Assembly (NCBI GenBank): GCA_016192825.1
Contig: JACPTK010000012.1
Location: 1-43,872 of the forward strand
Direction of reading: 5' to 3'
DNA: 43,872 nucleotides
Source of the DNA: Betaproteobacteria bacterium
GTDB taxonomy: Bacteria > Pseudomonadota > Gammaproteobacteria > Burkholderiales > SG8-41
The position numbers and the translations under genes were made by a program. The stretch's first letter is position 1. The number at the start of each line of letters is the position of its first letter. The notes beneath the pieces were generated by a model. It was not told the DNA's origin. It saw only the letters and a list, made by a program, of their open reading frames with translations, and did no database searches. This document shows, one piece after another, positions 22,653 to 43,740 of this stretch.

Positions 22653-22782
22653 GTGATTGGTGATTCGTGATTGGTAATTGGAAGACAGCGTTTAGGCTTA
22701 GAGCCGTGATAGCTTTCGTGCCCCCTGCGAGCAGGGGAACGAGGTGAAAAGCTCCATTCACTATTCACTAATCACCAATCAC
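22653..22782. repeat. Inverted pair of 4 x 7-base arrays around a central hairpin
   Basis: Four heptamers of consensus GTGATTN run on the plus strand at 22653-22680. Four related heptamers (GTGATTG, GTGATTA, GTGAATA, GTGAATG) run on the minus strand from 22782 to 22755. The outer 20 bases (22651-22670 and 22765-22784) are inverted with one mismatch. A CCCCTGC/GCAGGGG hairpin (22722-22737) lies between. The element fills the gap between the lyase and amidohydrolase genes. Confidence 0.75.
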
Positions 22783-22808
22783 GCAGTTGCAGGTTGCGAG
22801 CAAGTGAA

Positions 22809-23711
22809 ATGAACTTGCAACCTGCCGCCGGCGTGGAGGCGCCGGCTTGCGCGCCGCCTGATTTCCGGCCGCGCAAGCCGCGGCTGAAGCTGCCAGCAAA
22901 GGCGTGCGACACGCACGCGCACGTCATGGGACCCAAGGCGCGCTACGCGTATTCGCCGGCGCGCGTGTATACCCCGCCCGACTGCCTGCTCACCGATTAC
23001 CTGCGCATGCTCGACACGCTCGGCGTCGAGCGCGCGGTGCTGGTGCAGCCCAGCGTCTACGGCACCGACAACACCGTGATGCTGGAAGCGATGAAGGCGG
23101 CGGGCGGACGGCTGCGGGGCGTGGCGGTGGTCGCCGAGGACATATCCGATGCGGAGCTGAAGAAACTCGATGGCGCTGGCGTGCGCGGCGTGCGCGTGAA
23201 CATCGTGGACGTCAAGGACCGCAAGCCGGGCACGCTGCCGATGGACGCGCTCGGAAAGCTCGCGCGGCGCGTTGCGCCGCTCGGCTGGCACATGGAATTC
23301 CTGATGCACGCGGACGAATTCCCCGATCTCGACCGCGCATTCGCCGATTTCCCGGTGGAGATCGTGCTGGGCCACCTCGGTTATATGAACATCGGCGAGA
23401 AACCCGAAGCGCCCGGCTTCCAGGCGCTGCTGCGGCTGATGAAGAGCGGGAAGGCGTGGCTCAAGCTGACCGGCCCGTACCGCATCACCAGGGCGCCGCT
23501 TCCCTACCCCGACACCGTGCCGTTCGCCAAGGCGCTGCTCGCAGCCAACCGCGAGCGCGTGATCTGGGGCACCGACTGGCCGCACGTCATGCTGAGGGGC
23601 GTCATGCCCAACGACGGCGACCTCGCCGACGTGCTGGCCGACTGGATTCCCGATGCGGGCCTGCGCGAGCAGGTGCTGGTTACGAATCCCGCGCGACTCT
23701 ACGGCTTCTGA
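22809..23711 (+). CDS. Amidohydrolase family protein, 2-pyrone-4,6-dicarboxylate lactonase-like
   Basis: A 300-residue TIM-barrel hydrolase of the amidohydrolase-2 family (PF04909). The metal-binding first-strand motif is CDTHAHVMG (His36, His38). Later landmarks are LVQPSVYGTDNTV, the GHLGYMN strand and the C-terminal GTDWPH aspartate. The overall pattern matches LigI-type pyrone-dicarboxylate lactonases and related decarboxylases. The ATG at 22809 is preferred over a TTG five codons upstream. It follows a DapA-like gene on the same strand, and both may act on the same carboxylated aromatic-derived compound. It converges with the FeoB gene, leaving only 12 bases between stops. Confidence 0.88.
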   Translation: MNLQPAAGVEAPACAPPDFRPRKPRLKLPAKACDTHAHVMGPKARYAYSPARVYTPPDCLLTDYLRMLDTLGVERAVLVQPSVYGTDNTVMLEAMKAAGGRLRGVAVVAEDISDAELKKLDGAGVRGVRVNIVDVKDRKPGTLPMDALGKLARRVAPLGWHMEFLMHADEFPDLDRAFADFPVEIVLGHLGYMNIGEKPEAPGFQALLRLMKSGKAWLKLTGPYRITRAPLPYPDTVPFAKALLAANRERVIWGTDWPHVMLRGVMPNDGDLADVLADWIPDAGLREQVLVTNPARLYGF

Positions 23712-23723
23712 CCGGCGGCCCCG

Positions 23724-25778
23724 TCAAGCAAGCACCCGTCCCACCGCCTCGAGCGCGAAGCGCGCAATTCCGCTTACCAGCAGCGCGACGCCGATCGACA
23801 GCGATACCGCAAACATCGCCTCGCGGCGCCCTATTGTCTTCAGCATCACCGCGAACGTCGAGATGCAGGGCAGATAGAACGTGAGAAACAGCAGGAACGT
23901 GAAGATCTGGACGGCGCCGAGGTAACGATCGATCTCGAAGGTGCCGAGCGCCTGGAAGATCATGAGCAGCGACAGTTCCTTGCGCAGGATTCCGAATAGC
24001 AGGGGCACGCCGAGCACGACCGGCAGCCCCAGCCACCACTGCGTAACGGGCGTGAGCAGCGCGTTGAGCACGCGGTCCGCGCCAACGTGGCTCAGGAGCG
24101 CCAGCACGATGCTGCCGCCCACCAGCAGCGGCATGACGATCGTCAGGATGTCCCGCGTGCGCAGCCAGGTTTCCTTGAGCAGCGGCCGCCAGCGCGGCAT
24201 CGCATAGGGCGGAATCTCCTGCACCTGCCCCGGGCCGCTGGCAGGATAGCGCCGCCGCAGCAGCTGTCCGAGGACCGCGATCACCAGCATCGCGAGCAGG
24301 AAGATCGCGAGCACGCCCGCCGCGCCGAGGTATTTGCCGGCGAGCGCGAGAATGATCGCGGAGCGCGCCGAGCAGGGAACGAACATCACCAGCAACGACG
24401 CAACGATGCGTTCGCTGCCATGGCTGCGAGCGCCGATCTCCGAGATGGCGGGGACGTTGCATCCCAGCCCGAGCAGGAACGGCACGGCAACGTCGCCGTG
24501 CAGGCCCAGCCGGTGAAAGCCCCGGTCCACCGCGAACGCGATGCGCGCCATGATCCCCACCTGCTCCAGCGCGACCAGCAGCAGCACGAGCGGAATCATG
24601 TACGGCACGACGATGCCCACGAGCCCGATCAGGCCGTCGGCCACCGCGCGCCCGATCACGCCTGCGGTGGTCTGCGGCTGCCACGCGGACGCCCACTCCA
24701 CGAGCCGGGCCGAGGTCATCGAGTCGAGCCATGCGCTCACGTCGAATACCACGAACAGCACGGCGGCAAACACGGCCGCGCTTCCGGCAAGTCCCCACCG
24801 CCGGCTCAGGAACAGCTCGTCGAGCCAGTAACGCCAGTTGCGGCGCTCGCGCACTCCGCCCGGCCTCGTGGCGGCTTCCGCGAGGATCGCCGCCCGGTGG
24901 TGGCGGTCCGCGTGAAGCTCGTCGCGCAGCGGCCGCGGCAGTGCCCGGTCCGCCGCCGCCCGCAACCGCAGGACTTCGGCCGACTGCCGCGGGAAATGCT
25001 GTCTCAGCTCGTCGAGGAAGTAGTGGTCGCCGTCCCCGATTCGCGCGACGAGCAAATGCAGGGGCACGCGGAAGGCGGCGCGGACCTCCGGCACGCTCAG
25101 GACATTCGAGAGCGGAACCAGGCTGTCCTGGAGGTGTGGGCTCGGCGGCAGCGGGAGCGGGCAGACGCCACGCCGCACGGCCTCGACTGTCGCGGCGAAC
25201 AGGTCCTTGACCCCCTGCCCCATGACCGCCACCGTGGGCACGACCGGCACGCCGAGGCGGCGGGCGAGCACCTTGCTGCCGATGTGCAGTCCCTTGTCGC
25301 GCGCCTCGTCCATCTTGTTGAGCGCGACGACCAGCGGGCGGCCCAGTTGCAGCAGCTCCAGGGTGAGCTCGAGGTGCCGCTCGAGCGCCGTCGCGTCGGT
25401 TACCTGGACGATGACATCCGGAGGCGCGAGAGGCACCGGCGGGCCTTGGGGCTCGTGCTCCGAAACCGGCGGCCGTTCGTCGCCCCAAAGGAGATATTTG
25501 AGCGCTTCACGGTCTCCGGACTCCGGGTCGCGCAGCGAGCGCAAGCTCGGCAGATCGATCACCCGCGCCTCATCGAGCCCGATCTCGACAGCGCACTCGT
25601 CGTACGCGCGCCGGGTGCCGGCCAGCGCGCCGGTGCGTACGGCCGCGCTCTGAACCGCGCGGAAAATCGTGCTCTTGCCGCACCCGGGCAGCCCCACGAG
25701 CGCGATCCGCAACTGGCGGGCGCCCCGGAAGAGCGGGCCCCGCACCGAGATCGTGGCGGTCTTGACGGAGCGCTTCAT
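23724..25778 (-). CDS. feoB: FeoB-like ferrous iron transporter
   Basis: From the ATG at 25778 the protein has 684 residues. The N-terminal G domain carries G1 GLPGCGKST (29-37) and the G4 motif NKMD. The C-terminal membrane part contains the two Gate motifs typical of FeoB, GLGCNVPAI and VPCSARSAI, among about eight to ten membrane helices. It should import Fe2+ across the inner membrane, powered or gated by GTP. No feoA or feoC is present, and the G-domain to Gate linker is long, so it belongs to a divergent FeoB group. The alternative upstream ATG at 25808 would add ten residues. Confidence 0.85.
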   Translation of the reverse strand: MKRSVKTATISVRGPLFRGARQLRIALVGLPGCGKSTIFRAVQSAAVRTGALAGTRRAYDECAVEIGLDEARVIDLPSLRSLRDPESGDREALKYLLWGDERPPVSEHEPQGPPVPLAPPDVIVQVTDATALERHLELTLELLQLGRPLVVALNKMDEARDKGLHIGSKVLARRLGVPVVPTVAVMGQGVKDLFAATVEAVRRGVCPLPLPPSPHLQDSLVPLSNVLSVPEVRAAFRVPLHLLVARIGDGDHYFLDELRQHFPRQSAEVLRLRAAADRALPRPLRDELHADRHHRAAILAEAATRPGGVRERRNWRYWLDELFLSRRWGLAGSAAVFAAVLFVVFDVSAWLDSMTSARLVEWASAWQPQTTAGVIGRAVADGLIGLVGIVVPYMIPLVLLLVALEQVGIMARIAFAVDRGFHRLGLHGDVAVPFLLGLGCNVPAISEIGARSHGSERIVASLLVMFVPCSARSAIILALAGKYLGAAGVLAIFLLAMLVIAVLGQLLRRRYPASGPGQVQEIPPYAMPRWRPLLKETWLRTRDILTIVMPLLVGGSIVLALLSHVGADRVLNALLTPVTQWWLGLPVVLGVPLLFGILRKELSLLMIFQALGTFEIDRYLGAVQIFTFLLFLTFYLPCISTFAVMLKTIGRREAMFAVSLSIGVALLVSGIARFALEAVGRVLA

Positions 25779-25889
25779 CGCATCGTGCGCCCGCCTGCAC
25801 GGGCTCACGCCATGCTAGCGCCGGCCGCCGCGCCCGATCGTGATCCAGATCAAGTTCTGGCGGCGTTGCCCCCCGCGCCGCCATCGAAG

Positions 25890-26019
25890 CGCTGATGCGA
25901 TTGGGCGGCACCGCGATCCCGCGCGCGAGCGCGTTGATGCTGACACCCATGGGCTTCATGAACTCCTCGTAGAGGATTTCCCCGGGCGGAATCGCATTGA
26001 GCGGTCTGGCAGCCATCAT
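25890..26019 (-). pseudogene. HigA-type antitoxin, N-terminal remnant
   Basis: The first ~43 codons from the ATG at 26019 read as a HigA antitoxin: IPPGEILYEEFMKPMG then NALARGIAVPPNRIS, the start of the helix-turn-helix. After this the match ends abruptly and the frame becomes arginine-rich noise running into the feoB region. An AGGTGA ribosome site precedes the start. No higB toxin is seen. It is a decayed toxin-antitoxin module, a common relic near defence genes. Confidence 0.75.
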
Positions 26020-26067
26020 TTCACCTATCCATTAGCACGCGGGCCTGGCTCAGATTGAGGATTCGGG

Positions 26068-28551
26068 TCACCGCCGACTCAACAACGCCAACAGCTCGGC
26101 CAGCTTGTCGAGCGTGCCCGGGTCCGGAACAGGCAGCTTGAGGTAGCGGCGGCCGGTCCCGGGATCGGTTTCCAGCAGCGGGTGCCCGGAGGCCGGCGCG
26201 CCGTCCGGCGCCAGTTCGCGTGCAGCGGACAGGACCTGAGTGGCGAGCTGCAATCCGGCCGTGATCAGTCCCTGCCACGCGTCCGCGGCCCGCTCGTCCC
26301 CGCCATCGCCACGCTCCCGCGCAATCGCTGCGGCGCCCGCCGGTTCCGGCGACGCCTCGGGTAGCTCCGGTGGCCCCACCGCGTCGGGCGGGGCCTCGGG
26401 CGCGATCGGTTCCTCGACTTGCGGCCTTGCAGCGCCGCCCGTGGCCTTCTCCACGCCCTCCATGAAACGGGTAAGCCGCGAGCCGCCGAGGGATATCTCC
26501 GTCTGGCCGCCGTCCAGCACACCGGCGAAGAGCGCCTTTTTGAACCCCAGCAGGGACAGCATGCCCTCCTCGATGGTGCCCTGCGCGATGAAGTTCACCA
26601 CCTGCACGCTCCTCCTCTGGCCCATCCGGTGCACGCGCGCGATGCGTTGCTCCAGCACCGCGGGGTTCCACGGCTGGTCCATGTTGACGACAGTCGCCGC
26701 GTGCTGGAGATTGAGCCCCACGCCGCCCGCGTCGGTGGAGAGGAACAGGCGGCACCCGGGATCCGTGCGGAAGCGGTCCACCAGGTCCTTGCGCCTCTCC
26801 GACGGCACGCCCCCGTGGAACATCACGTAGCCCCACTTGCGAGCCGCCAGCCGGCGCACGATCAACTCGTGGGTGCCCACCCACTGGCTGAACACCACGG
26901 CCTTGGCATCGGAATCCTCGAACAGATCCTCCAGATACGCGATCAGCTCGCCCACCTTGACGCCGTGATCGGTTTCCCGGTCGATGAGCCAGGTGCTGTT
27001 GCACGACATGCGCATGTTCTGAAGCGCGCAGGTGAGCACGCGCTGTTCGGCCTCCGACAGGAAGCGGAACCGGCGCCATTTCGCGACGATGCGGGCGACG
27101 GTCTCCCGGTTCTCCTCGTGCACGGCGCTCTGCTGGGGGGTCATGGCGACGAACACGTTCTTGTCGATCCGTTGCGGCAACTGCGCGAGCACCTCGGACT
27201 TGCGCCGACGGATCATCACCGGCGCGAGGGTGCGCGCGATGGCGGCGAGGTCGCGATAGCCGACGACCCTGCCGGTTTCGTCGCGAACCTGGTGCGCGTC
27301 GAGCAGGCGCCAGGTCGGACCCAACCGGTGCTGGTCCACGAACTGCACGATGGAGATCAGCTCCTCCAGCCGGTTCTCGAGCGGGGTGCCGGTCAGCACG
27401 AAGGCGTAGGGACTGCGGATGCGCTTGAGCGCCCGCGCGGCAATCGTGTTCCAGTTCTTGATACGCTGCGCTTCATCGGCGATGACAAGCTCCGGCGACC
27501 AGTGCTGGATGAACTCCAGGTCGCGCGCAATCGTGTCGTACGCCGCGATCTTCCATCCGGCCGGCGCACCGTACAGCCTTCGGCGCGCGAGCTGCCCCCC
27601 GCCGATCACCAGGGCCTTGCGGCCGGTAAAACGCTCCAGCTCCCGTTCCCATTGGTGCTTGAGCGACGCCGGGCAGATCACCAGCACGCGTTCCACGCCG
27701 AGGTGCTTCGTGAGGATTTCGACCGCCGCAATCGCCTGCACGGTCTTTCCAAGCCCCATATCGTCGCCGATCAGGCACCGCCCGGCGCGCGCCGCGAAGA
27801 GAGCGCCCTCTGCCTGATAAAGATGCAGCGGTTCCCTGAGCAGACGCCGCAGGGTCGCGCTCTTCGCGCTGGCGGGATATGCCGCCTTCAGCAGCGCCTC
27901 GCGCCTGCTTGCGTCCCGCACCTGGGCGATAAAGTCAAGGGCGTCGTCGTAAACCCTGACCGCGTGGTCCGGGCCGGTCTTCGCGAGGAAAGACTCGAGC
28001 CGGGGGAAGCGCTCGAGCGGAAGCTCCCAGCCGGCCGTCTCGCTGAACAGGGCGCCCGCGGCGGCAAGGAGCCGGGCGGGGCAGCGTACGCCCGGACGGA
28101 AGTGCACCGTGCGCCGCGCGCCGTAGCGAAGGTAGACCTCGCTGTAAGGCGGTTGAAATCCCTTTTGCAGCGCGGCGCGGCCGCTTCGGCGGCTCTCAAG
28201 CCGCGCCAGCGTGAACTCGATGTGCTTGCAGGTGCCGAGATCGTTCGTGGCGAAATCCGGGCAGGAGCAGTAGTTGTCGCCCAGCCCCGTTCCGCGGATC
28301 GCCACCCGATACCGCCCGCCGCTCGCCGGATTGCTCACGAGGAATTCGGAGAAGACCGGTTCGCTGCCCGTGTTCTCCAGCACGAAGCCCTGTTCGCGGC
28401 CGAACTGCCGCCGCAGCGCGGCCTGCCACACCTCCGGCGCGACGCCGGCTGGGGGATGAAGGCGCGAATAGCGTGCCTCGCGCTGTGCGTCCTTGCGTCG
28501 CGTTGCGCGCGCTGACGCGCTTCTTCCGGTGCGCCGGTCGCGGCCCGCCAT
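26068..28551 (-). CDS. SWIM zinc-finger SNF2-family helicase/ATPase
   Basis: An 827-residue protein. A SWIM zinc finger (Cys95, Cys97, Cys108, His110: YCSCPDF...TCKHIEF) precedes the SNF2 motor. Motif I is GDDMGLGKTVQ (262-272), motif II is DEAQ (359-362), motif III is LTGTPLENR. The C-terminal lobe carries FLSTDAGGVGLNLQ and RIARVHRMGQ. The last ~130 residues are acidic and alanine-rich with a short conserved end. Such proteins translocate on double-stranded DNA. It is the third gene of a cassette with a Schlafen-type protein and a MORC-like ATPase, and its 5' end overlaps the ATPase frame by 217 bases, an unusually long overlap. Confidence 0.9.
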   Translation of the reverse strand: MAGRDRRTGRSASARATRRKDAQREARYSRLHPPAGVAPEVWQAALRRQFGREQGFVLENTGSEPVFSEFLVSNPASGGRYRVAIRGTGLGDNYCSCPDFATNDLGTCKHIEFTLARLESRRSGRAALQKGFQPPYSEVYLRYGARRTVHFRPGVRCPARLLAAAGALFSETAGWELPLERFPRLESFLAKTGPDHAVRVYDDALDFIAQVRDASRREALLKAAYPASAKSATLRRLLREPLHLYQAEGALFAARAGRCLIGDDMGLGKTVQAIAAVEILTKHLGVERVLVICPASLKHQWERELERFTGRKALVIGGGQLARRRLYGAPAGWKIAAYDTIARDLEFIQHWSPELVIADEAQRIKNWNTIAARALKRIRSPYAFVLTGTPLENRLEELISIVQFVDQHRLGPTWRLLDAHQVRDETGRVVGYRDLAAIARTLAPVMIRRRKSEVLAQLPQRIDKNVFVAMTPQQSAVHEENRETVARIVAKWRRFRFLSEAEQRVLTCALQNMRMSCNSTWLIDRETDHGVKVGELIAYLEDLFEDSDAKAVVFSQWVGTHELIVRRLAARKWGYVMFHGGVPSERRKDLVDRFRTDPGCRLFLSTDAGGVGLNLQHAATVVNMDQPWNPAVLEQRIARVHRMGQRRSVQVVNFIAQGTIEEGMLSLLGFKKALFAGVLDGGQTEISLGGSRLTRFMEGVEKATGGAARPQVEEPIAPEAPPDAVGPPELPEASPEPAGAAAIARERGDGGDERAADAWQGLITAGLQLATQVLSAARELAPDGAPASGHPLLETDPGTGRRYLKLPVPDPGTLDKLAELLALLSRR

Positions 28552-30164: not shown

Positions 30165-30232
30165 AGTGGAGTCCTTGTTCTGCTCGTTCCGTCCTTACCG
30201 ACTTTGCACCTTGGCGGATGCGCTTGCAGGCT

Positions 30233-31591: not shown

Positions 31592-31600
31592 AGCTCTGCA

Positions 31601-31810: not shown

Positions 31811-31892
31811 ATGGGGCTTTTACTTTAACCCCCTTTTCGTGACCTTTCGCGATAGCGGCCTCGAACGAGTTATCGGTGTGGAATTCGACCGC

Positions 31893-32795: not shown

Positions 32796-32828
32796 TTTTC
32801 AATTCTCCGGATTCTTTAAAGGAAAAGG

Positions 32829-32911
32829 GTGATTCGTTCCTCGTTACTCGTCTCTCGTCTTTAGCGCACAGGCTGAAGTTCCAGCCACACCAGGAACGAG
32901 CAACGAGTCAC
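32829..32911. repeat. Inverted pair of 4 x 7-base arrays (GTTCCTC type)
   Basis: Four heptamers starting with GT (GTGATTC, GTTCCTC, GTTACTC, GTCTCTC) lie on the plus strand at 32829-32856. Four partners (GTGACTC, GTTGCTC, GTTCCTG, GTGTGGC) lie on the minus strand from 32911 to 32884. A short GGCTG/CAGCC hairpin sits between. The pair occupies the divergent gap between the TAXI and CREST-like genes. Confidence 0.7.
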
Positions 32912-33050: not shown

Positions 33051-33842
33051 ATGGAGGAAACGCAGCGAGCCCGTCCCGGCTGGCGCGAGGCGGCATTGCT
33101 CCTGCTCGTCCTTGCGCCGCTCCTCTATCTCCTGCTGCTGCACGGCGGCCCCATCCCGCAGGACCGCGGCTACCACGTGTTCGTCGACAGCCGCAGCTGG
33201 CTGGGGCTGCCCAATTTCGGGAATATCGCATCGAATATTCTCTTCCTTCTCGTCGGGACGGCCGGAATGCTGTGGAGCCGCCGGAATGCCGGGGCCGGGG
33301 CGCGGCTCTCGTGGGCGGTCTTTTTTCTCGGCGTCGCCCTCGTCTTCGTCGGGTCGGCATATTACCACTGGACCCCCGACGACGACTCGCTGGTATGGGA
33401 CAGGCTGCCGATGACGGTGGCGTTCATGGGCCTGTTCGCCGCGCTGCTGAGCGAGCATCTCCCGGAGAAAATCGAGCTTCCGCTGCTGGTTTCCGCGATT
33501 GCCGTCGGGATCGCCAGCGTCGTGCTCTGGAAGCACAGCGACGACCTGCGCGTCTACATCTGGGTGCAGCTCACCCCGCTGCTGGCAATTCCCTTCGTCA
33601 TTGCCGTTTTTCCCGGCCGGTTCACGCACCGGCATTACCTGCTGTACGGCGTCGGGTTTTACGCGCTGGCCAAGGTCGCCGAGTTCTACGATCAGGGAAT
33701 CTACGCGCTCACTTCGGCGGCGATCAGCGGCCATTCCCTGAAGCACCTGCTCGCCGCGGCCGGCGCGTTCTGCGTCTACCTCATGCTCAAGCGGCGTGCG
33801 CCGCTCGGGAGATCAGAAACCCGTGAGATCGGGAGATCGTGA
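33051..33842 (+). CDS. Ceramidase-like (CREST superfamily) integral membrane protein
   Basis: A 263-residue protein with about seven transmembrane helices. Conserved polar residues on the helix ends fit the CREST membrane hydrolases (alkaline ceramidase, PAQR): a Ser102-x3-His106 pair in GSAYYHWTPDD, Asp117 in VWDRLP, and His228/His232 in GHSLKH. These would bind a zinc ion and hydrolyse an amide or lipid. A GGAG site precedes the start. The last ~12 codons (ETREIGRS and stop) are made from an 8-base tandem array, so the natural C-terminus seems to have been overwritten by the repeat. The substrate is unknown. Confidence 0.7.
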   Translation: MEETQRARPGWREAALLLLVLAPLLYLLLLHGGPIPQDRGYHVFVDSRSWLGLPNFGNIASNILFLLVGTAGMLWSRRNAGAGARLSWAVFFLGVALVFVGSAYYHWTPDDDSLVWDRLPMTVAFMGLFAALLSEHLPEKIELPLLVSAIAVGIASVVLWKHSDDLRVYIWVQLTPLLAIPFVIAVFPGRFTHRHYLLYGVGFYALAKVAEFYDQGIYALTSAAISGHSLKHLLAAAGAFCVYLMLKRRAPLGRSETREIGRS

Positions 33843-33954
33843 GGTCGAGAGGGGGAAATAACCCTTACCTTTGCTCTCCCGCGCTCCCGCGCTCCCGCTC
33901 TCACACCCTCGTGGATTTTGTCGCTCTCCCGCTCTCCCGCTCTCGCGCCCTCCC
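33807..33954. repeat. 8-base tandem arrays: one on the plus strand, two inverted on the minus strand
   Basis: On the plus strand GTGAGATC, GGGAGATC, GTGAGGTC and GAGAGGGG run at 33823-33854, with a further GGGAGATC at 33807-33814. On the minus strand two sets of four octamers (GGGAGCGC and GGGAGAGC types) lie at 33904-33873 and 33954-33923. They fill the convergent gap between the CREST-like gene and the dehydrogenase. The TGA stop of the CREST-like gene is part of a GTGAGGTC unit. Confidence 0.75.
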
Positions 33955-33960
33955 GGCATT

Positions 33961-34869: not shown

Positions 34870-35064
34870 GCTTGCCTCTCATGCCGTGACGTATCAAAAC
34901 GATCGAAGTGGTGACGAAATACGACTGGCGACCAAGGATAGCGGATAACCCGTAACGAAAAACGCTGCGAACGACCTCGCGGCGTGAAACCGGCGCTCCG
35001 TCGTCAAAGTCCCGCCACCCGCGTATCGATGCGTATTCCCGGAACGCCCGCGCGCTTCCGTTTT

Positions 35065-35706: not shown

Positions 35707-35817
35707 GGGCCAGCCTGAAGTCCGGCGGACTCGGCGCCGCCGAAGCCCGACACCGAGTCCGGCGCCCGGTCTCCACCACGCGCACCGCACCGAGACTCGC
35801 GGCGCGGCAGGGCGCGG

Positions 35818-36828
35818 CTATCGCCCCTTCTTCTCATTGATGCCCGCGGCCTTGATCACCCTGCTCCACTTCGCCATGTCCTCGCGTATGATCGCCGCAA
35901 ATTCCTCCGGCGTGCTGCCCACTGCTTCGGTTCCCCTTCTGACGAAGCTTTGCTTGACGTCGTCGCGCTTCAGAGCGCGCGCGACCTCGTCGCTCAGCAG
36001 CTTGACGATCGCGCGCGGAGTCTTCGCCGGCGCGAACATCCCCGACATCGAAGACGCCTCGTACCCCGGCAAGCCCGATTCCGCCATCGTGGGCACCTCC
36101 GGCGACAAGGACGAGCGCCCCGGACTCGCGATGGCCAGCGCTTTCAGGCGCCCCGCGCGGACATGCGGCAGGCCCACCGACCCGGAAACGAACATGAGCT
36201 GAACTTCGCCGGTGACCAGCGCGTTGGACGCCAAGCCGCTGCCCTTGTAGGCGATCCGCACGATATCCACGCCCGCTACGATCTTGAACAGCTCCGCGGT
36301 CAGGTGCGTGGCCGCGCCCGAGCCGGCCGAGCCATAATTGAGTTTTCCGGGATGGGCCTTGGCGTAATCGATCAGTTCCCTGACGCTATTGGCCTTTACC
36401 GAGGGGTGCACAAACAGGTAGAACGGCGCCCGGGTTCCGAGCGAAACCGGCGCAAAGTCCTTGACGGGATCGAAAGGCACCTTGTCGCGCAGGTAAGGAA
36501 GCAGCCACACCGTGCTTCCATAGTAAAGCAGGGTATAGCCATCGGGCGTGGCGTGCGCAAGGATCTCGCCCGCGATCGCGCCGCTGGCCGCGCCGCGATT
36601 CTCGACCACCAGGTTCTGGCCCAGTTGAATGGAGAGCGCCTGCGCAATGGTACGCCCGGCGATCTCGTTTCCGCCCCCCGGCTCGGGCGCCAGCATGCGG
36701 ATGGGCTTGGTGGGGTACGGAAAGTCTGCCGCCTCAACGTGTCCGGCGCCTGCCCCGCAGCCCCATGCAACCGCGCCAGCCAGCGCCATAACGGCGCACA
36801 GGCGCGTTTTCTGCGCACTCCTGATCAT
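35818..36828 (-). CDS. Bug/TctC-family solute-binding protein
   Basis: A 336-residue protein with a signal peptide of about 34 residues; a Cys at position 24 gives a weak lipobox-like CGAGAG, so a lipoprotein is possible but not clear. The mature region begins near ADFPYPTKPIRM. Bug motifs are PEPGGGNEIAGRTI (an altered ligand loop with Asn-Glu in place of Thr-Asp), NYGSAGSGAATHLTAE and IAYKGSGLAS. It follows the DapA-like gene closely in the sense direction and probably captures the substrate of that operon. Confidence 0.9.
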   Translation of the reverse strand: MIRSAQKTRLCAVMALAGAVAWGCGAGAGHVEAADFPYPTKPIRMLAPEPGGGNEIAGRTIAQALSIQLGQNLVVENRGAASGAIAGEILAHATPDGYTLLYYGSTVWLLPYLRDKVPFDPVKDFAPVSLGTRAPFYLFVHPSVKANSVRELIDYAKAHPGKLNYGSAGSGAATHLTAELFKIVAGVDIVRIAYKGSGLASNALVTGEVQLMFVSGSVGLPHVRAGRLKALAIASPGRSSLSPEVPTMAESGLPGYEASSMSGMFAPAKTPRAIVKLLSDEVARALKRDDVKQSFVRRGTEAVGSTPEEFAAIIREDMAKWSRVIKAAGINEKKGR

Positions 36829-36909
36829 GGTCGATCTCCTCGTCGTCAGTGGTTATCTCGAACTTCCTGCTGCACGGTATCTCGGTCCCGGCAGGGTCCG
36901 ATTTTACTT

Positions 36910-37896
36910 TCATGCCTCCTTCACGCGCGGATAGAGCCTGTCCATCCAGCCGCTCGATTCGATCCTCGACTTCAGCCCGGCTTTTTGCTCCTCCGTCAGC
37001 GGGTGCATGGGCGGCCGCACCGGTCCGGCTGCCATGCCCACGAGATCCATCCAGTACTTGATCTGAGGCAGCGGGTGTGTCGCCGCCTGCTTGTCCCGCA
37101 GCACCCGGTACATCGTCTGCCAAACCTCGCGCAGCGGTTCGAGTTCATAGTATTTGCGCGAAGCATCCGCCCCGCGCCCGGCCCGCGCCAGCTCCCAGTA
37201 TTCCTGTATCGGCTGACAGTGCGGGCTCTGCATCAGGAAAACCGACGTCGTTCCCAGCATCACCTGCTGGCCAAAGTGCAGCGTCATCGTCAGCAGGTGC
37301 TCTTCGTTCGACAGGCTCACCACGATCCGATCTCCGCACAGCTCGCCGCAACGCACCGTATGGCGCACGTCGTTGACGGCGTCCTTGACGGCGCAGACAT
37401 TGGGGATCTTCGCCAGCCGCGCGATCGTCTCCGGCGTCATGCAGATGCCCGAGTGATAGGTGTTGTAGAGAAAAATTGCGATATCGACCTGCGAAGCCAC
37501 GTACTCGTAGAACTCGCACACCATTTCTTGCGACTTGGCCCATTCATACGGCGCCCATACCATCACCGCGTCCGCCCCGATCGCTTCGGCATGCCGGATC
37601 AGGCCGATGGTTTCTGCCACACTGTGGTCCGTTGCGTGAACGTAGGCGGGCACCCGCCCGCGAACCGCGTCGACCGCGATCTCCATCGCGCGCTTGCGCT
37701 CTTCCAGCGTGCAGACCCACGGCTCCGAAAAGCCGAAACCCAGCCCCGCGGCTTTTACTTGCAGCATGCGCTCGACGTTGTGGCGTATGCCCGCCTCGTC
37801 GAGCCGGTAGTCCGGCGTGAACGGAAACATCGGGCTCGTCCACAGCCCCTTCATCCGCTCCCGCGCCCAGTCTTTCGCGTCCTTCTTGCTGATCAT
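36910..37896 (-). CDS. Dihydrodipicolinate synthase family protein
   Basis: A 328-residue DapA-superfamily aldolase. The Schiff-base lysine lies in CAVKDAVND and the conserved tyrosine in FLYNTYHSG, where the usual YNxP becomes YNTY. The first-strand loop is GFSEPW in place of GTTGE, so the carboxylate-binding site differs from true DapA. It lies 81 bases upstream of a Bug gene and downstream of two PrpD-type genes on the same strand. This arrangement is typical of operons degrading branched or tricarboxylic acids. It is only distantly similar to the other DapA-like enzyme of the window (21.7 kb). Confidence 0.88.
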   Translation of the reverse strand: MISKKDAKDWARERMKGLWTSPMFPFTPDYRLDEAGIRHNVERMLQVKAAGLGFGFSEPWVCTLEERKRAMEIAVDAVRGRVPAYVHATDHSVAETIGLIRHAEAIGADAVMVWAPYEWAKSQEMVCEFYEYVASQVDIAIFLYNTYHSGICMTPETIARLAKIPNVCAVKDAVNDVRHTVRCGELCGDRIVVSLSNEEHLLTMTLHFGQQVMLGTTSVFLMQSPHCQPIQEYWELARAGRGADASRKYYELEPLREVWQTMYRVLRDKQAATHPLPQIKYWMDLVGMAAGPVRPPMHPLTEEQKAGLKSRIESSGWMDRLYPRVKEA

Positions 37897-37978
37897 GCCT
37901 CTGCTCTCCCGAGAAAACGGCCAGCTATTGCCAGGCCCAAATGCGCCCCATTCTGCGGCGCGACGCTTCCGCCACTCG

Positions 37979-39373
37979 TCATGCCGCGGCGGGCGACAAT
38001 AATCCGCCTATCGCTCCCGCGCCATCGGACGGACGCGAGTCGCCAATGCACTCCTCCAGTCGCGCGGCCCGTTCCACTCCCAGAACCGGCGCGGCGTTGG
38101 CGCGAAACTTGGTCCGCAGGTCCTTCTCCGACAAGGGGTTTCTCCTGTCGCCCCTTGCGATCTTCACGCGCCGCTCAAACACGCGGCCGTCGTTCAGGTG
38201 CAGCCTGACGAACGGCTGCTCGCCCTTGCCGACGCGCTCGTCGACGACGACTCCGACGCGCCGCGCCAAAGCGAGAATATCCGGCCGGCGTATCGCCTCC
38301 GGTGTGAACTGGTCGAGGGCGCCGCCGCCGGTCGCGATCGCGACTGCGACGGCGTAGGGCAGACTGAACCGGGCATCGAGCATCGTCGCCACGTCGTGCT
38401 TGGCGAGTTGCCTGACGTGCGTGGGATTGCCCAGGATGCTGACGCGCGAAATGTGCTCCGCGCGCAGATCCAGCTCCCGCCGGAGATCGAGCACTGCATC
38501 GATGCTGCTGTGAGTGCCGCGGCAGGCAGCATACGGCTTGAAGCCCACGATTCGGATCCGGAAATCCCTGCCCAGTCCCTCCAGGGCTGCGGCAGGCACC
38601 GCCTTCCGCCCCGCATACGTGGGAAAAAACCCGCCCCACTGCGTCTCGAATATGTCGGCGGGCGCCGTAACGCCCTGCCGCGCAAGGCATGCTGCGACGA
38701 CGCCGGCCTGCGCCGCGAAGCCCGGGTGCACGCGCTTGCTCATCGCGCCCTCAGGAATGAAGGCCCACGTCCCGCATGCTTGGCTGCCCGCAAAACCGCG
38801 CGCCCACTGCATCTGCTCCTTGTCGAGCCTGATCAGTCGTCCGACTGCCGCCGCCGCGCCGAACCCTCCGCACACGCTGGTCGAATGCCATCCCCCGTCC
38901 TTCAACGGCAGATTGCCGCCCGCCCCCTCCAACACGCGGCGGGCAACGTCGTAGCCGGCTACTATGGCGGTCAACAGATCGGCGACACTGGCGCCCGCGC
39001 GCACGGCCGCCCCGAATGCCGAGGGCACGATAACGGCCCCCGAATGGAGGCAGCCTTCGAAGTCGTCCATCTCCCGTGCGTGAATCGCGGCCCCGTTCAC
39101 CAGCGCGCCCAACGGCAGCGGCATTCGCTCCTGCGTTCCCCATAGCAGCGTGTCGCCGGAGCCGCCCGCGGCATCGCGCATAGCCAGGCGAATCCGTCGC
39201 AGTTCGTCGGTATCCGATCCCGCCAGCCCGCATCCGAGGGCGTCGAGCAGCGCCATCCGCGCCCGCGCGCGCACGTCCTCCGGAAGGTCCTCGTATCGCA
39301 ATCCGGCCGCGAACCGGGCGAGCGCGCCACTGATGGTCGCATCGGTCGGCAGTGGCAATCGGTCTTCGGGCAT
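37979..39373 (-). CDS. MmgE/PrpD family protein
   Basis: A 464-residue member of the 2-methylcitrate dehydratase (PrpD)/cis-aconitate decarboxylase fold family. Family landmarks are ALLDALGCGLAGSDT near the N-terminus, GALVNGAAIHAREMDDFE (the active-site region), and HSGAVIVPSAFGAAVRAG. The helical domain and the smaller C-terminal domain are both present and the length is normal. It starts 17 bases after the stop of another PrpD-type gene, so the two are co-translated or nearly so. The pair may form a heteromer or act on two related acids. Confidence 0.9.
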   Translation of the reverse strand: MPEDRLPLPTDATISGALARFAAGLRYEDLPEDVRARARMALLDALGCGLAGSDTDELRRIRLAMRDAAGGSGDTLLWGTQERMPLPLGALVNGAAIHAREMDDFEGCLHSGAVIVPSAFGAAVRAGASVADLLTAIVAGYDVARRVLEGAGGNLPLKDGGWHSTSVCGGFGAAAAVGRLIRLDKEQMQWARGFAGSQACGTWAFIPEGAMSKRVHPGFAAQAGVVAACLARQGVTAPADIFETQWGGFFPTYAGRKAVPAAALEGLGRDFRIRIVGFKPYAACRGTHSSIDAVLDLRRELDLRAEHISRVSILGNPTHVRQLAKHDVATMLDARFSLPYAVAVAIATGGGALDQFTPEAIRRPDILALARRVGVVVDERVGKGEQPFVRLHLNDGRVFERRVKIARGDRRNPLSEKDLRTKFRANAAPVLGVERAARLEECIGDSRPSDGAGAIGGLLSPAAA

Positions 39374-39390
39374 GACCTACGGTCCTTCCG

Positions 39391-40770
39391 TCACCGCAGG
39401 GGACGCAATGCGTCCACCAACCCCCGGATATCCGGGAGCGTCTCGATCTCGCGCACCTGCGCAATCACGCGTTCAGATTGCTTCCGGCCAAGCACGGGCT
39501 CCGCGATCATCCGGAATTTGCCTTCGATGTCCGCGTCGGTCGGGTTGAGATAGCGCGAATTTTCGCTGCGATCGACTTCCACGCTGTGAACGCCGCCGCC
39601 GCTCAGCCGGATCGTCACCCGGCACAGGCTGCGCGCCGGATACTGGCGCTCGTATTCGTCATTTTGCGTAACGCGCACCCGTTCCGCCATCGCGCGGATG
39701 GCGGGGTCGCGCAGCATGTCGCCGCCATACGCGGGCCCAAGCAACTGCGCGGGATCACCCGTGCAGACCGCAACTGCAACGCAATGTGGAAGGCTCGCCC
39801 GCGCAGTGTGATCCGACCGTGGGTGAGGATCATTGAAAAGCGCGGTACGGCGCATGCAGTCGACATGGATTTCCTCGACCTCGCCGGCACGGACGTCGTG
39901 CCGCCGGATCAACTCAAACGTCGCGTCAAGCGCGGCCGCGAGAGGGCCGACGGTCGCGTAATACTTGGTCAGTATTCCGCTGAGGATTTCCCACTGCGTG
40001 AACGTTCCGTCGGCGGCGATTCCTTCCGTGAGGCGGTCCGGGTGGTTGTTTTCCGAGATGACCGGCAGCCAGATGCCCACGCTCTCCGGCGCGCCCCCGA
40101 CACCGCGCGCCGCCATCTCCGCAGCCAGCAATCCCGTCGCGCAGGCGTGGCCGCCGACCAGCCATTTGACATTGCCGCCCTGGCTGACGCGGCCTGTCGC
40201 GGCCGGCAGCAGGCTGATGACGGTTCCGAGCGTCTTCCGCATCTCTTCCGCACCCAGCCCCATCAGGTGGCCAGCGGTGACGGCAGGGCCGATCGCCCCG
40301 AGCAAGCCGATCGTTGACCAGCCCTTGTAAAACGCGTGCGGGTGCAGCGCGCGCCCGAACCGGATCTCCACCTCGTAGCCGGCGATTACCGCCGGAAGCA
40401 GCGCCGACCCGCACAGGCCATCGCGCTCCGCCATGGCGAGCGCGATGGAGATGATCTCGCAGCCCGGGTGGACCGTACCCCGCGGCGCCGCGTCGGCGAG
40501 TTCCAGCCCGTAGATATAGGTTGCATGCGCCAACCCCACGAGTCCGGCCGTCGTCTTCTGTCCGCCGGGCAGCAGCGTCGCTTCTGGGTTGCCGCCTTGC
40601 GCCAGGACATAGGATCGAATGGCGTCCGAGATTCCTGCGTAATATCCGGCCACCAGGCAACCAAGCGTGTCCAATATGCGCTGTTTCGCGCATCTGGCCG
40701 CTTCGGGAAGAAGCGAATCGAATCGCAATCCCGCCGCTGCGCGGCCAAGCATTTGCAACGGATCATGCAC
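39391..40770 (-). CDS. MmgE/PrpD family protein (paralogue)
   Basis: A 459-residue protein of the same fold family as its downstream neighbour. Landmarks are RILDTLGCLVAGYYAG, LAHATYIYGLELADAAP and HPGCEIISIALAMAER; note ELAD where the neighbour has EMDD. It is the first gene of the PrpD-PrpD-DapA-Bug set. The two PrpD-type proteins are clearly diverged, so the duplication is old. Likely reactions are dehydration, isomerisation or decarboxylation of a tricarboxylate. Confidence 0.9.
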   Translation of the reverse strand: MHDPLQMLGRAAAGLRFDSLLPEAARCAKQRILDTLGCLVAGYYAGISDAIRSYVLAQGGNPEATLLPGGQKTTAGLVGLAHATYIYGLELADAAPRGTVHPGCEIISIALAMAERDGLCGSALLPAVIAGYEVEIRFGRALHPHAFYKGWSTIGLLGAIGPAVTAGHLMGLGAEEMRKTLGTVISLLPAATGRVSQGGNVKWLVGGHACATGLLAAEMAARGVGGAPESVGIWLPVISENNHPDRLTEGIAADGTFTQWEILSGILTKYYATVGPLAAALDATFELIRRHDVRAGEVEEIHVDCMRRTALFNDPHPRSDHTARASLPHCVAVAVCTGDPAQLLGPAYGGDMLRDPAIRAMAERVRVTQNDEYERQYPARSLCRVTIRLSGGGVHSVEVDRSENSRYLNPTDADIEGKFRMIAEPVLGRKQSERVIAQVREIETLPDIRGLVDALRPLR

Positions 40771-40957
40771 CTCGAAACCGATTAAGAGCGGAGCTTCAAG
40801 AACACTGCGCTGCCATTCCGTCTTCGGAACGGAGGGAGCGTCTGGCTTTGCAATGGTAGCAGAGCGCGGCGCGAACCAGTACGCGGAGCCGGCGCAAATG
40901 TCACGATGCGGACTGACCGTGACGGACGCCTTACGGCGGGTCGGCGAACGGGCCGTG

Positions 40958-42076
40958 CTACCAGACCGCGCCGCGCGCGGTGATGGGCCAAATCGCCTCT
41001 ACCTTGCCGCCGCGCACGCACACGTAGTGGTCGTAGAGATTGACCGTCGGGTCGCAATGGCCGGGGATGAGCTTCAGCTTGTCGCCTACTGCCAGGCGCG
41101 CCGTTGCGTCGAGCTTCAGCACGCCGTGTTCGTCGGACGCCTTGATGTACTCCGCGCCCCCGACTTCCGCGACCTTCGGCATGCCGGAATCCACGCTGGA
41201 GGCCTTCAGCCCCGCGTCCACTACCGCGCGGTCGGCCGCCGGGCGGCTCATCACGGTCGCCCACACGAACAGGCTGTGCTCGAAGCGCGGGATGCCGCTC
41301 TCGGTCCAGTCGTTCTTCGAGTAATCCACGTCCATGAAGATGTAGGAGCCCGCCTGGAGTTCGTGGTAGACCCCGCTCACCGCCTCGAAGAGATAGGTCC
41401 CGGTGCCGGCGCCGGTCACCTTGTCGCAGGCAATGCCAGCCTGAGCGAGCCGCTCCGTCGTCCGCCTCACCTTCGCGCACGCCGCCTCGATCGCCGCGCG
41501 CCGCTCCTCCGCCTTGCGCAGGTGCTGCGCCGCGCCCTGGTAGGCCTGCAGCCCCGCGAAGCGCAGGCTCTTCGAGCGCGCGATGGCATGCGCCAACGCG
41601 GCCGCCGGCTCGCCCGGCTCCACGCCGCAGCGGTTGGCGCCCACGTTCACCTCCACCAGCACGTCGAGCATCACGCCCGCCGCCCGCGCGGCCTCGTCGA
41701 GCGCCGCGACATTGCCCGCGTCATCGGCGCACACCGCGACGCGCGCCCGCTTCGCGAGCGCGGCGAGCCGCCTCAACTTGGGTGCCCCCACCACCTCGTT
41801 CGCGACCAGCACGTCGGGCACGCCGCCCTCCACCATCGCCTCGGCTTCGCTCACCTTCTGGCAGCACACGCCGACCGCGCCGCGCGCGAGCTGCCGCAGC
41901 GCGATCTCGGAACACTTGTGGCTCTTCGCGTGCGGGCGGATATTGATCCTCTTGCCCGCGAGCGAGGCGTCCATGCGGTCCAGGTTGCGCTCGAACGCGT
42001 CGAGATCGAGGAGCAGCGCGGGCGTATCGACGTCGGCGAGGCTCATGCCGACGGCGGCGGGAATATAGGCGGACAT
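40958..42076 (-). CDS. D-threonine aldolase/D-3-hydroxyaspartate dehydratase-type PLP enzyme (DSD1 family)
   Basis: A 372-residue fold-type III PLP enzyme. The PLP lysine is Lys51 in RPHAKSHK. The divalent-metal site is His340 and Asp342 in PGHCDPTVNLYDHY. The AlaR-like barrel (about 15-255) and the C-terminal beta domain are both complete. Enzymes of this family cleave D-threonine or related D-3-hydroxy amino acids, or dehydrate D-serine or D-threo-3-hydroxyaspartate. A second ATG at residue 11 is a possible start. About 190 bases separate it from the PrpD operon, and a large repeat gap lies upstream. Confidence 0.88.
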   Translation of the reverse strand: MSAYIPAAVGMSLADVDTPALLLDLDAFERNLDRMDASLAGKRINIRPHAKSHKCSEIALRQLARGAVGVCCQKVSEAEAMVEGGVPDVLVANEVVGAPKLRRLAALAKRARVAVCADDAGNVAALDEAARAAGVMLDVLVEVNVGANRCGVEPGEPAAALAHAIARSKSLRFAGLQAYQGAAQHLRKAEERRAAIEAACAKVRRTTERLAQAGIACDKVTGAGTGTYLFEAVSGVYHELQAGSYIFMDVDYSKNDWTESGIPRFEHSLFVWATVMSRPAADRAVVDAGLKASSVDSGMPKVAEVGGAEYIKASDEHGVLKLDATARLAVGDKLKLIPGHCDPTVNLYDHYVCVRGGKVEAIWPITARGAVW

Positions 42077-42096
42077 CTATTCGGCCAAGGAACTGC

Positions 42097-42271
42097 GTGA
42101 GTGGTGATTAGTGAGTAGTGATTGGAGAGTACCCCCTCACCCCAACCCTCTCCCCTGGGGAGAGGGCGACAGGGCTGGAGGCCGATTCACAGCTCACGAA
42201 TTACGATTCACGCATTTCGAGAAAGCCTTTAGCGGGGTTGGTCCAATCACCAATCACCAATCACGAATCAC
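42097..42271. repeat. 7-base tandem arrays: one on the plus strand, two on the minus strand, with central hairpin
   Basis: Plus-strand units GTGAGTG, GTGATTA, GTGAGTA and GTGATTG occupy 42097-42124. Minus-strand sets of four lie at 42211-42184 (GTGAATC, GTAATTC types) and 42271-42244 (GTGATTG types). Between them is a hairpin CCCTCTCCCC / GGGGAGAGGG (42146-42166), a widespread bacterial repeat. The TGA stop of the cupin remnant is part of the rightmost GTGATTC unit. Confidence 0.75.
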
Positions 42272-42503
42272 GCCTTTACCGGCCCGGTATAGGCGCCCTT
42301 CTTCGGATCCACCGGCATCCCCATGATGCCGTGGCTCATGTCCTTATGCGCTCGCCCTCGACGACCGGCCCTTCGGCGGTCGAGTAGCCGGTGCCGGCCC
42401 CGATCCCGGCCATCTGCGTGAGCGGGAAGATGAAGCGGCCGTTCCCGGCCTTGACCGCGCCCTCGATTTTCGTCTGCGCGCCGGCTTTTCCGCTCGTGGT
42501 CAT
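42268..42503 (-). pseudogene. Cupin-domain protein with its central barrel deleted
   Basis: From the ATG at 42503 the frame reads a cupin-type lead (GPVVEGERI at its end). A stop follows in frame, but a shifted frame then reads SHGIMGMPVDPKKGAYTGP, the standard C-terminal tail of this cupin group. The middle, with the metal-binding HxH and the beta barrel, is missing. The junction is near 42350. The parts add up to about 75 residues, against roughly 130-150 for a complete protein. It lies upstream of the D-threonine-aldolase-type gene on the same strand. Confidence 0.6.
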
Positions 42504-42705
42504 GCGCGAGTCCCTGCCTGGTTGAAGTCCGCGAAGCATAGAGAGCGGCCGGTGCCGCGTCAACCGCATCCGCCCCTTCCGCGCCGCGAAAAGGTGACAG
42601 CGCGGCGGAGGGTGTATAGGATTTACCGCAGCGACCGGGGCCCCGGCAAGATGCCGGTCACGCCATCACACCCGCCCGGCGCGACCATCAACGAAGGAGG
42701 AAACC

Positions 42706-43704
42706 ATGAATCTCGTGATTGCACTGCTGCGCCGGACAGGGCTTTGCCTAGCCGCGGCCGCGATACTCGCGCCCGCCACCGCCGCCGCGCAGGAATGGAA
42801 GCCCTCGAAAAACGTGGATATCGTGGTGGCGTCCGGCGCCGGCGGCTCATCCGACCGCACGGCGCGCGTGGTGCAGCGGCTGCTGCAGGCCAACCCCGCG
42901 TTTCCCAGCATCAGCGTCACCAACCGCCAGGGCGGCGGCGGCACGGTCGCGTGGACGTATCTCGCGCAGCAGCCGGGCGACCCGCACTACATCGCCACGT
43001 TCTCGCCAACGATGGTCACCAACCAGCTGCTGGGCGTCGCCAAGCTGCGCTACACCGACTTCACCCCCTTGAGCATCATCCTGCGGGAGTACGTACTGGT
43101 GACGGTGAACGCCGACTCGCCGATCACTTCGGGCAAGGTCCTCCTCGAGCGCATCCGGAAGGACCCGACGGCGCTGAGCTTCGCGTTCTCGGCCGCTCCC
43201 GGCAACCACAATCACGTCGTCATCGGCATGATTTTCAAGGCCGCCGGCGCCGACCCCAAGCAATCCAAGGTCGTCATCCAGAAATCCGGCGGGGCGGGCG
43301 CGACCGCAGTGATGGGCGGCCATATCGACGTGCTGGTGGGGGCGCCCGCCAACGTGCTGCCGCACATCCGGGCCGGCAAGATGCGCGCGATCGGCTTGAG
43401 CGCGCCAAATCGCCAGCCGGGCGCGGCGGCCGAGCTGCCGACGCTGAAGGAACAGGGGATCGACGCCGTGTTCTACAGCTGGCGCGGCTTCCTCGGGGCA
43501 AAGGGCCTCACGCCGGCCCAGGTCGCGTTCTGGGACGCGGCGTTCGCCAAGGCGCTGCAGGTGGAGGACTGGAAAACGGATCTCGCGAAGAACGCCTGGG
43601 CGGAGGATCTGAAGAACGCCGCGGAAACCCGCAGGCATCTCGACAGCGAGCAGGAACTGATCGCGAGGATGCTGGGCGAGCTGGGCCTCTTGAAGCGGAG
43701 CTAA
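42706..43704 (+). CDS. Bug/TctC-family solute-binding protein (divergent)
   Basis: A 332-residue binding protein with an AAGGAGGAAACC ribosome site before its ATG. A signal peptide covers about residues 1-28 (LAAAAILAPATAAAQ, before EWKPSKNV). The loop GAGGSSDRTARVVQ replaces the usual PxGGxTD, and later landmarks are NRQGGGGTVAWTY, FSAAPGNHNHV and QKSGGAGATAV. It belongs to the divergent Bug subgroup seen with TctAB-like transporters for other organic acids. It is transcribed away from the aldolase region. A 7-base tandem array follows its stop immediately. Confidence 0.9.
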   Translation: MNLVIALLRRTGLCLAAAAILAPATAAAQEWKPSKNVDIVVASGAGGSSDRTARVVQRLLQANPAFPSISVTNRQGGGGTVAWTYLAQQPGDPHYIATFSPTMVTNQLLGVAKLRYTDFTPLSIILREYVLVTVNADSPITSGKVLLERIRKDPTALSFAFSAAPGNHNHVVIGMIFKAAGADPKQSKVVIQKSGGAGATAVMGGHIDVLVGAPANVLPHIRAGKMRAIGLSAPNRQPGAAAELPTLKEQGIDAVFYSWRGFLGAKGLTPAQVAFWDAAFAKALQVEDWKTDLAKNAWAEDLKNAAETRRHLDSEQELIARMLGELGLLKRS

Positions 43705-43732
43705 GTGATAGGTGATAAGGGATAAGGGATAA
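43705..43732 (+). repeat. 4 x 7-base array directly after a stop codon
   Basis: GTGATAG, GTGATAA, GGGATAA and GGGATAA follow the TAA stop of the Bug gene without a gap. This is the sense-strand half of the array plan seen in other gaps; any inverted partner would be at or beyond the window edge. Confidence 0.7.
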
Positions 43733-43740
43733 GGGGGCGT

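Follow-up and report, generated by a model that had tools for sequence, protein, structure and literature searches.

Paired inverted heptamer arrays between bacterial protein genes are probably the ends of small insertion elements resembling rRNA intervening sequences

Introduction

The intervening sequence (IVS) in the 23S rRNA of Coxiella burnetii is regarded as a selfish element that carries an S23p open reading frame (ORF) (PMC4990558). According to the sections of that paper on its structure, it has terminal inverted repeats, a 28-bp stem, and three tandem heptamers GACAGAT with a degenerate fourth; the repeat number varies among strains, and RNase III cuts at the first repeat (PMC4990558). 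Here we report on intergenic gaps framed by inverted arrays of heptamers or octamers in a contig of Betaproteobacteria bacterium (assembly GCA_016192825.1, contig JACPTK010000012.1, numbered C4 by us). The whole contig, which has 43,872 bases and is one of the 123 contigs of a 5.1-Mb assembly, was analysed and is called the window hereafter. Like the Coxiella IVS, as far as those sections describe it, the elements considered here have tandem heptamers in the arm, inverted ends and, in gene-carrying forms, a gene for the IVS protein (IVP/S23) between the arms. Unlike the published IVSs, which lie inside rRNA, in helix 9, 25 or 45, they stand between protein genes, in many copies and with many different repeated units, or words; and unlike a 23S IVS with its S23p ORF, the window copies are gene-less. 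Since the window copies lie between protein genes and no 23S rRNA match was found in the 20 IVP loci scanned, the elements are IVS-like rather than rRNA IVSs.

Intergenic heptamers are known from other bacteria. For GGGNATC of Xanthomonas and GGGGA(C/T)T of Nostoc, quadruplexes were proposed, and the repeats are, in the sections of the paper devoted to them, generally not associated with mobile elements (PMC4692102). The arrays described here share with them the conserved unit positions 1–4 and 6, the mode of four units, the inverted pairs and the position at gene edges, and those same sections do not mention IVP (PMC4692102). The TAACTGA repeats of Beggiatoaceae, Cyanobacteria and Bacteroidetes are likewise intergenic heptamer arrays with a patchy distribution across phyla, but are, in the part of the source that treats them, mainly direct and unpaired, and mostly near and upstream of start codons in the studied strain (PMC4679880). 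The original prediction, made by a model from the letters of the window, recognized no named family. No Rfam covariance model matched window positions 22000–43872 at E≤1. The statement that no family is named has to be qualified by the likeness to the Xanthomonas and Nostoc heptamers and to the heptamer-ended 23S IVS, as these are described in parts of PMC4692102 and PMC4990558. No paper joining IVP to heptamers outside rRNA appeared in search listings of open-access PMC texts, an absence which is weak evidence.

Cyanobacterial STRR sequences are also short tandem heptamers between genes, and REPIN/RAYT elements and miniature inverted-repeat transposable elements (MITEs) are short inverted intergenic elements with gene-less copies. 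Unlike the latter two, the elements described here have no link to Y1 transposases, no target-site duplication was seen, and their arms are tandem heptamers.

Gene-carrying forms of the framed gaps

Inward-facing tandem arrays with units of 7 or 8 bp were found at both edges of four gaps of the window (22653–22782, 32829–32911, 33823–33954 and 42097–42271), as originally predicted and as re-read in the sequence. We propose, with a probability of about 0.7, that these framed gaps are small IVS-like insertion elements in mRNA spacers, and that the window copies are short gene-less forms. What was directly observed is that the elements are inserted into short spacers, that their arms are inverted and belong to one word class, that the long form carries an IVP gene, and that arrays and IVP genes are linked in their occurrence.

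An S23p/IVP ORF is absent from the window gaps and present in sister elements of the source genome and of relatives. In the genus labelled g156, some arm pairs enclose an ORF, and six such ORFs matched PF05635, the 23S rRNA-intervening sequence protein (IVP/S23) with a four-helix bundle fold, well over the cut-off. Five of the six also weakly matched the bAvd model, and the PHROGs label for the two ORFs tested named as a relative the Avd protein of diversity-generating retroelements. Solved structures of IVP relatives are 2gsc (XCC0516), presumably a Xanthomonas campestris protein, and 2rld.

Among 60 relatives, an array of period 7–9 was located within 300 bp of 26 of 30 IVP loci, and on both sides in 13, versus 0 of 30 Y1 transposase loci (with approximate gene bounds) and 26 of 311 random intervals within the same IVP loci. 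The source genome has eight PF05635 matches forming seven loci; all seven had an array, five of them on both sides. Similarly, an array stood beside 12 of 13 further g156 IVP segments when gene bounds were taken from the protein match, at 19 of 28 IVP loci of a phylum-wide set (both sides in 10; one further locus could not be placed), and within 400 bp at 6 of 8 chosen IVP loci. Two of the 28 phylum loci (L351 and L363) are nuoC-nuoD sites, shared with the comparison below. In sixteen both-sided loci, the left and right periods agreed in every case, the inverted similarity of the two arrays of one locus was 0.815 versus 0.320 between loci (0 of 20000 permutations), and the own partner was the best match in 13. 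Arms of the window type flank an IVP gene in another genome (GTGATTN/GTGACTN, G058) and in the source genome itself (GTGACTN); arms of GGGA type, like the heptamers of Xanthomonas and Nostoc, enclose an IVP gene from both sides in genomes G286 and G411, and stand on one side of it in G203.

The two features also occur in the same genomes. Matches to arrays of one word class correlated with IVP matches (Spearman 0.71 over the 60 relatives, 0.64 within a family of 36), and in the phylum set of 397 genomes IVP was present in 19 of 25 genomes with arrays versus 43 of 372 others (p 3e-12), all these figures being uncorrected for phylogeny. Furthermore, word similarity rose with IVP identity (r 0.57 over 76 loci with an array, 0 of 2000 permutations), and still did so (r 0.35 for 56 loci, 0 of 5000) after dropping 12 repeat copies, mostly from nuoC-nuoD, and then proteins more than 90% identical. 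Together with the weak link outside the GCGARTA lineage (see below), this means that the word is common to close IVP relatives and turns over beyond them.

Empty and filled states of one spacer

In one genus, 30 loci were compared between nuoC and nuoD, which encode the 30- and 49-kDa subunits of NADH dehydrogenase. The spacer was empty (0–12 bases) in 14, held an arm, an IVP-like ORF and an inverted arm in 13, and was otherwise occupied in 3. Inserts with the IVP-like ORF measured 453–487 bases, and a Pfam check of four of these 13 ORFs gave PF05635 each time. Filled sites may be over-represented in these counts, because the query contained part of the IVP gene. Several lineages of IVP, which differ in their words, have used this same site. 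Other inserts at nuoC-nuoD were seen in three species, with 372 (L276), 604 (L285) and 125 bases (L264).

A gene-less pair was found in relatives between the genes for the beta and epsilon subunits of ATP synthase (atpD-atpC). Given the operon structure, transcription must run through both nuoC-nuoD and atpD-atpC. Inserts at these places must therefore be tolerated in the message.

The idea that an element is copied as a unit is supported by the empty and filled states and by the gene-carrying version with the same kind of ends, but gene-less elements have arms that recur without their cores.

Number, pairing and turnover of the arms

Arrays were counted in 902,728 bases of the source genome, made up of the window and 48 stretches taken by place. 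The densities are biased upward, because the first 20 stretches come from contigs already known to contain matches, often from the surroundings of these matches; the other 28 were chosen mostly by contig number. The sample contained 163 arrays of period 7, 24 of period 8 and 18 of period 9, versus a total of 7 over all periods in a third-order Markov copy (one of period 7, none of period 8), so that the excess over chance implied by the original prediction is present and large. A reversed-word control (AGKGNTN) was not a valid null, because it matches real AGGGATG arrays, and among 12 permuted control words one, ANTNGTG, is the real word rotated, and there is overlap with it in some of the rest.

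For GTGANTN, 105 runs of at least three units were found, with four units in 56, three in 20 and five in 19; four is therefore the mode, but not the exact number first supposed, since the right array of the second window gap has three units and the left array of the fourth has five. Pairs of GTGANTN arrays within 200 bp were inward in 25 cases, outward in none and in the same direction in two, and an inward partner of the same class (score of at least 12 of 20) was found for 65 of the 105 arrays versus an outward one for a single array. In 31 of 32 neighbouring period-7 pairs, inverted similarity exceeded direct similarity. It reached at least 0.75 in 20 of the 32, versus 17.5% of random array pairs; the remaining 12 fell below 0.75 and include mixed pairs such as GTGATAA with AAGGATG. 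Each gap was originally said to have its own word: the second and third window gaps do, but the first and fourth share GTGANTN.

The outer flank of the arms approximates AAMNGC (A 0.63, A 0.71, A or C 0.79, any base, G 0.66, C 0.80, from 79 arrays in the first 568 kb), and GAC begins the inner side of many arms. The cores of 25 pairs of the source genome measured 16–123 bp, mostly 33–78. Beyond this genome, a GTGANTN pair was detected in 7 stretches of a viral collection (about 2.9 million contigs), and a scan of a named-genome collection, which may leave out records of the source genome itself, returned an anchored pair in 8 stretches: six from the Betaproteobacteria metagenome-assembled genome (MAG) nzgw576, one from K_Offshore_80m_m1_178, also a Betaproteobacteria MAG, and one from an ANGP1 MAG. 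The same layout with other words was found elsewhere in the phylum.

Orthologous gaps of relatives revealed turnover. Behind the DHDPS gene, the gap of G006 comprises just a few bases; G002 has the left arm alone there, G004 a pair of GTGACCG arrays, G012 an inverted pair of another kind, and several other relatives no array. Neighbouring gaps in the same genus behave similarly. In G012, the orthologue of the first window gap (L062) carries an inverted pair of CACAGAG-type repeats, not heptamers.

A chosen g156 locus, queried with both flanks and the pair, matched in all 81 g156 genomes. The best-scoring 30 of the 81 loci were fetched, a choice which favours uninterrupted gaps; other g156 genomes have longer inserts or short gaps at this place. 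All 30 had arrays, nearly all in inverted pairs; the left arm of L210 has decayed, and that of some other loci is weak. Species differ in the word (GTGAGTA, GGCAGTA, GCGAATA, GTGAATG or an octamer), and left and right arrays share more within a locus than with other species (0.174 versus 0.075, 0 of 5000 permutations), although the 30 rows come from related species, so that the test is not fully independent. The own right arm ranked first in 1 of 30 and among the top six in 21. At this locus the history of the gap differs from that of the flanks: L203 and L213 have flanks 96% identical and gaps no more alike than unrelated ones, and L188 and L205 have gaps 99% identical with flanks at 91%. The core of the L188/L205 gap had a full-length match, among the matches listed, only at the same locus in three genomes, and its arm matched many loci. 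A further 20-kb stretch (L179, G015:C38:35001-55000) differs from paired gaps: it contains sixteen single arrays that point the same way, one that points the opposite way, three pairs and two IVP genes.

Part of this behaviour would be expected if the arrays were purely mutational satellites, made by slippage and copied from arm to arm by template switching in a hairpin, with no mobile element involved. Template switching is documented, in the portion of PMC8794818 that bears on it. Some arrays show a stepwise drift of the word, the longest GTGANTN array, with 13 units, hardly varies, and at one gap every unit of the left arm is GCGAATA in L188 and L205 and GCGAGTA in L198, with core and right arm nearly the same. 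However, such satellites do not account for one gap being filled or empty with a whole insert of 453–487 bp, for the recurrence of one word class, with a common outer flank, at many sites, or for the four-unit mode despite differing units. We regard this explanation as unlikely, and consider that template switching and slippage probably act to keep the arms of the elements alike.

Position relative to genes

In counts that rest on a home-made gene caller, 168 of the 187 arrays of period 7 or 8 were intergenic, although intergenic DNA makes up only 20.7% of the sample. The outer neighbour was a stop codon for 52 GTGANTN arrays (median distance 5 bp) and a start codon for 47 (median 18 bp), 6 arrays were inside called genes, and in 87 of 98 the gene was nearer on the outer side.

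Arms which often begin at stop codons and form strong hairpins could be transcription terminators or 3'-end signals. Yet the 131 gaps with arrays (96 tandem, 20 convergent, 15 divergent) follow the types of 505 background gaps of at least 60 bp (351, 62 and 92), which speaks against a terminator role, as do the pairs of relatives within nuoC-nuoD and atpD-atpC, where transcription must pass. Such a role is therefore very unlikely. It is more improbable still that a period of 7 or 8 bp serves to place TGA or TAG in all three frames as a barrier to translation. TGA is contained in GTGANTN, and 17 of the 52 stop-side arrays of this class include the stop codon of the gene itself, but once GTGANTN is excluded a stop was read inward in 33 of 104 arrays (about 29% being expected for random words, by our estimate) and outward in 21. 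A stop-codon barrier was rejected as a general explanation, since the non-GTGANTN arrays are near random expectation.

Almost no weight can be given to G-quadruplexes, as proposed for GGGNATC repeats: the Xanthomonas repeats do share the four-unit mode and the inverted pairs, according to parts of PMC4692102, but GTGATTN, GTGACTN and GCGARTA have the same layout with no GGG within the unit, which contradicts a quadruplex as general cause. The common words GTGATTN and GTGACTN do not supply the G-tracts of a quadruplex. Just as implausible are REPIN/RAYT-type elements moved by Y1 transposases, for, although the pairs are short, intergenic and inverted and Y1 genes exist in the source genome, the arms are not single hairpins, arrays were near 0 of 30 Y1 loci, and Y1 and array copy numbers were uncorrelated (Spearman 0.12, 25 genomes); the Y1 transposase was rejected as driver on the last two counts. 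Two Y1 matches (PF01797) lie on the minus strand of the window, at 459–788 and 8468–8704.

Folding of the gaps and points against insertion elements

Each of the four window gaps is able to form a long hairpin (z −7.3, −4.3, −2.7 and −6.2 for gaps 1 to 4, in comparison with shuffles); by this folding they have the complementary, stem-forming ends of an IVS. The hairpin of gap 3 is the weakest, with 1 of 200 shuffles folding equally well. In pairs of the source genome, the variable unit positions 5 and 7 showed no greater likeness in register than out of it. The arms therefore share a word class and not base-by-base complementarity, and the match of words within a gap holds as a class only. A selected RNA or DNA structure, which had been suggested as one cause of this match, would be compatible with the folding, but no covariation was found at the level of units. 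Selection on base pairs within the arms was rejected as a cause, since the variable positions gave no in-register match with or without G-U pairs.

Several findings weigh against reading the framed gaps as IVS-like insertion elements. Covariation of units is absent, whether G-U pairs are allowed or not. No PF05635 match is present on the contig of the window, and the cores of the gene-less pairs are at most putative IVP remnants. The cores of the 25 source-genome pairs are unrelated, with core-core matches of just 10–13 bases; young copies would be expected to share cores under a simple copy-paste model. No target-site duplication was visible by eye at nuoC-nuoD, in species about 81–93% identical there. 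With loose gene bounds, the same 13 g156 IVP segments had an array beside 5 and on both sides of none, while 9 of the 28 phylum loci and 2 of the 8 chosen loci had no detected array. Inverted similarity was low in two of the sixteen both-sided loci (0.31 in L313, 0.41 in L318). Kinship is left out of the co-occurrence counts, 6 of the 25 phylum genomes with arrays lack a PF05635 match, and one relative (G027) has 24 array matches and no PF05635 match. Finally, the link between word and IVP is weak once the GCGARTA lineage is removed (r 0.15, 47 loci, 100 of 5000 permutations).

A possible mode of action

Three units make 21 bp, about the lower limit for RNase III, and four make 28 bp. If the framed gaps are IVS-like insertion elements, their ends would be the inverted arrays of about four heptamers or octamers between two genes, and the long form would hold one gene between its arms, for IVP/S23, which is related to Avd of diversity-generating retroelements. 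Arms of 4 × 7 = 28 bp would probably pair in the transcript and, by analogy with 23S rRNA IVSs, be cut there by RNase III, so that an insertion after the stop codon of one gene and before the start of the next may do little harm. IVP may help to spread the element and act in trans on gene-less copies. Slippage within an array, together with template switching between arms, could leave the word alike inside an element and drifting between elements.

A wider proposal is tentative, and we think it rather doubtful at present: that such elements form a genome-wide class of RNA-level parasites, comprising IVP genes with heptamer ends and gene-less copies in mRNA spacers, excised by RNase III, in which an Avd-like IVP would read the ends and spread them with a cellular reverse transcriptase. 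The heptamers of Xanthomonas, cyanobacteria and other bacteria would then be footprints of these parasites, and the rRNA IVSs a special case. If true, two puzzles would merge, namely the role and origin of the rRNA IVS and S23, and the origin of intergenic heptamer repeats. IVP would be a concrete candidate factor, the 28-bp arms of four units provide a testable anatomy, and heptamer arrays that have been interpreted as quadruplexes or regulatory sites may in fact be where insertion elements end.

Anatomy of the window

Counted by eye, the arrays have 4+4 units in gap 1, 4+3 in gap 2, four on the left and two right arrays of four in gap 3, and five on the left and two right arrays of four in gap 4. 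Gaps 1 and 4 have the word GTGANTN, gap 2 has GTTNCTC and an outer unit GTGAYTC, and gap 3 has the octamer GGGAGANC. The genes neighbouring the arrays, among those searched, are ordinary. Left arms are given below on the plus strand, and right arms are on the minus strand, in inward reading where units are listed.

In gap 1, the left arm (22653–22680) consists of the four units GTGATTG GTGATTC GTGATTG GTAATTG and the right arm (22755–22782) of the four units GTGATTG GTGATTA GTGAATA GTGAATG, on either side of a gene-less core with a GC-rich hairpin (22681–22754, no strand assigned). Gap 2 was read by eye as GTGATTC GTTCCTC GTTACTC GTCTCTC on the left (32829–32856) and GTGACTC GTTGCTC GTTCCTG on the right (32891–32911), and an element resembling it is present in the relative G006. 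The left arm of gap 3 (33823–33854) is made of the 8-mers GTGAGATC GGGAGATC GTGAGGTC GAGAGGGG, the fourth imperfect, and the stop codon of the preceding ORF (33051–33842) falls within it. The first right array (33873–33904) has four 8-mers, and the second (33923–33954) reads GGGAGGGC GCGAGAGC GGGAGAGC GGGAGAGC.

Gap 4 begins with the five units GTGAGTG GTGATTA GTGAGTA GTGATTG GAGAGTA (42097–42131), followed by a first right arm of four units (42184–42211) and a second of the four units GTGATTC GTGATTG GTGATTG GTGATTG (42244–42271). Its core hairpin (42134–42166, no strand assigned) matches the TMECO intrastrand-triplex pattern, published for E. coli in the part of PMC4666352 concerned. The match is to the reverse complement of the pattern, and none of 100 shuffles gave one.

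The predicted lone array is present at 43705–43735 on the plus strand, directly after the stop codon of TctC, with drifting units (GTGATAG GTGATAA GGGATAA GGGATAA); its partner could lie past the end of the contig. The terminal segment 43736–43872 is a repeat, found at 95–100% identity on five other contigs (C5, C83, C73, C97 and C9) and also terminal on C5 and C9. It is probably a mobile element that broke the assembly. The minus strand at 15661–19323 encodes a 1220-aa RHS-repeat protein. Finally, nine-base arrays ACAGGATTN occur at 20746–20771; the 18 period-9 arrays of the 903-kb sample represent a second class with its own period, and in another stretch (L032, 16153–16251) arrays of ACAGGATTN form an inverted pair.

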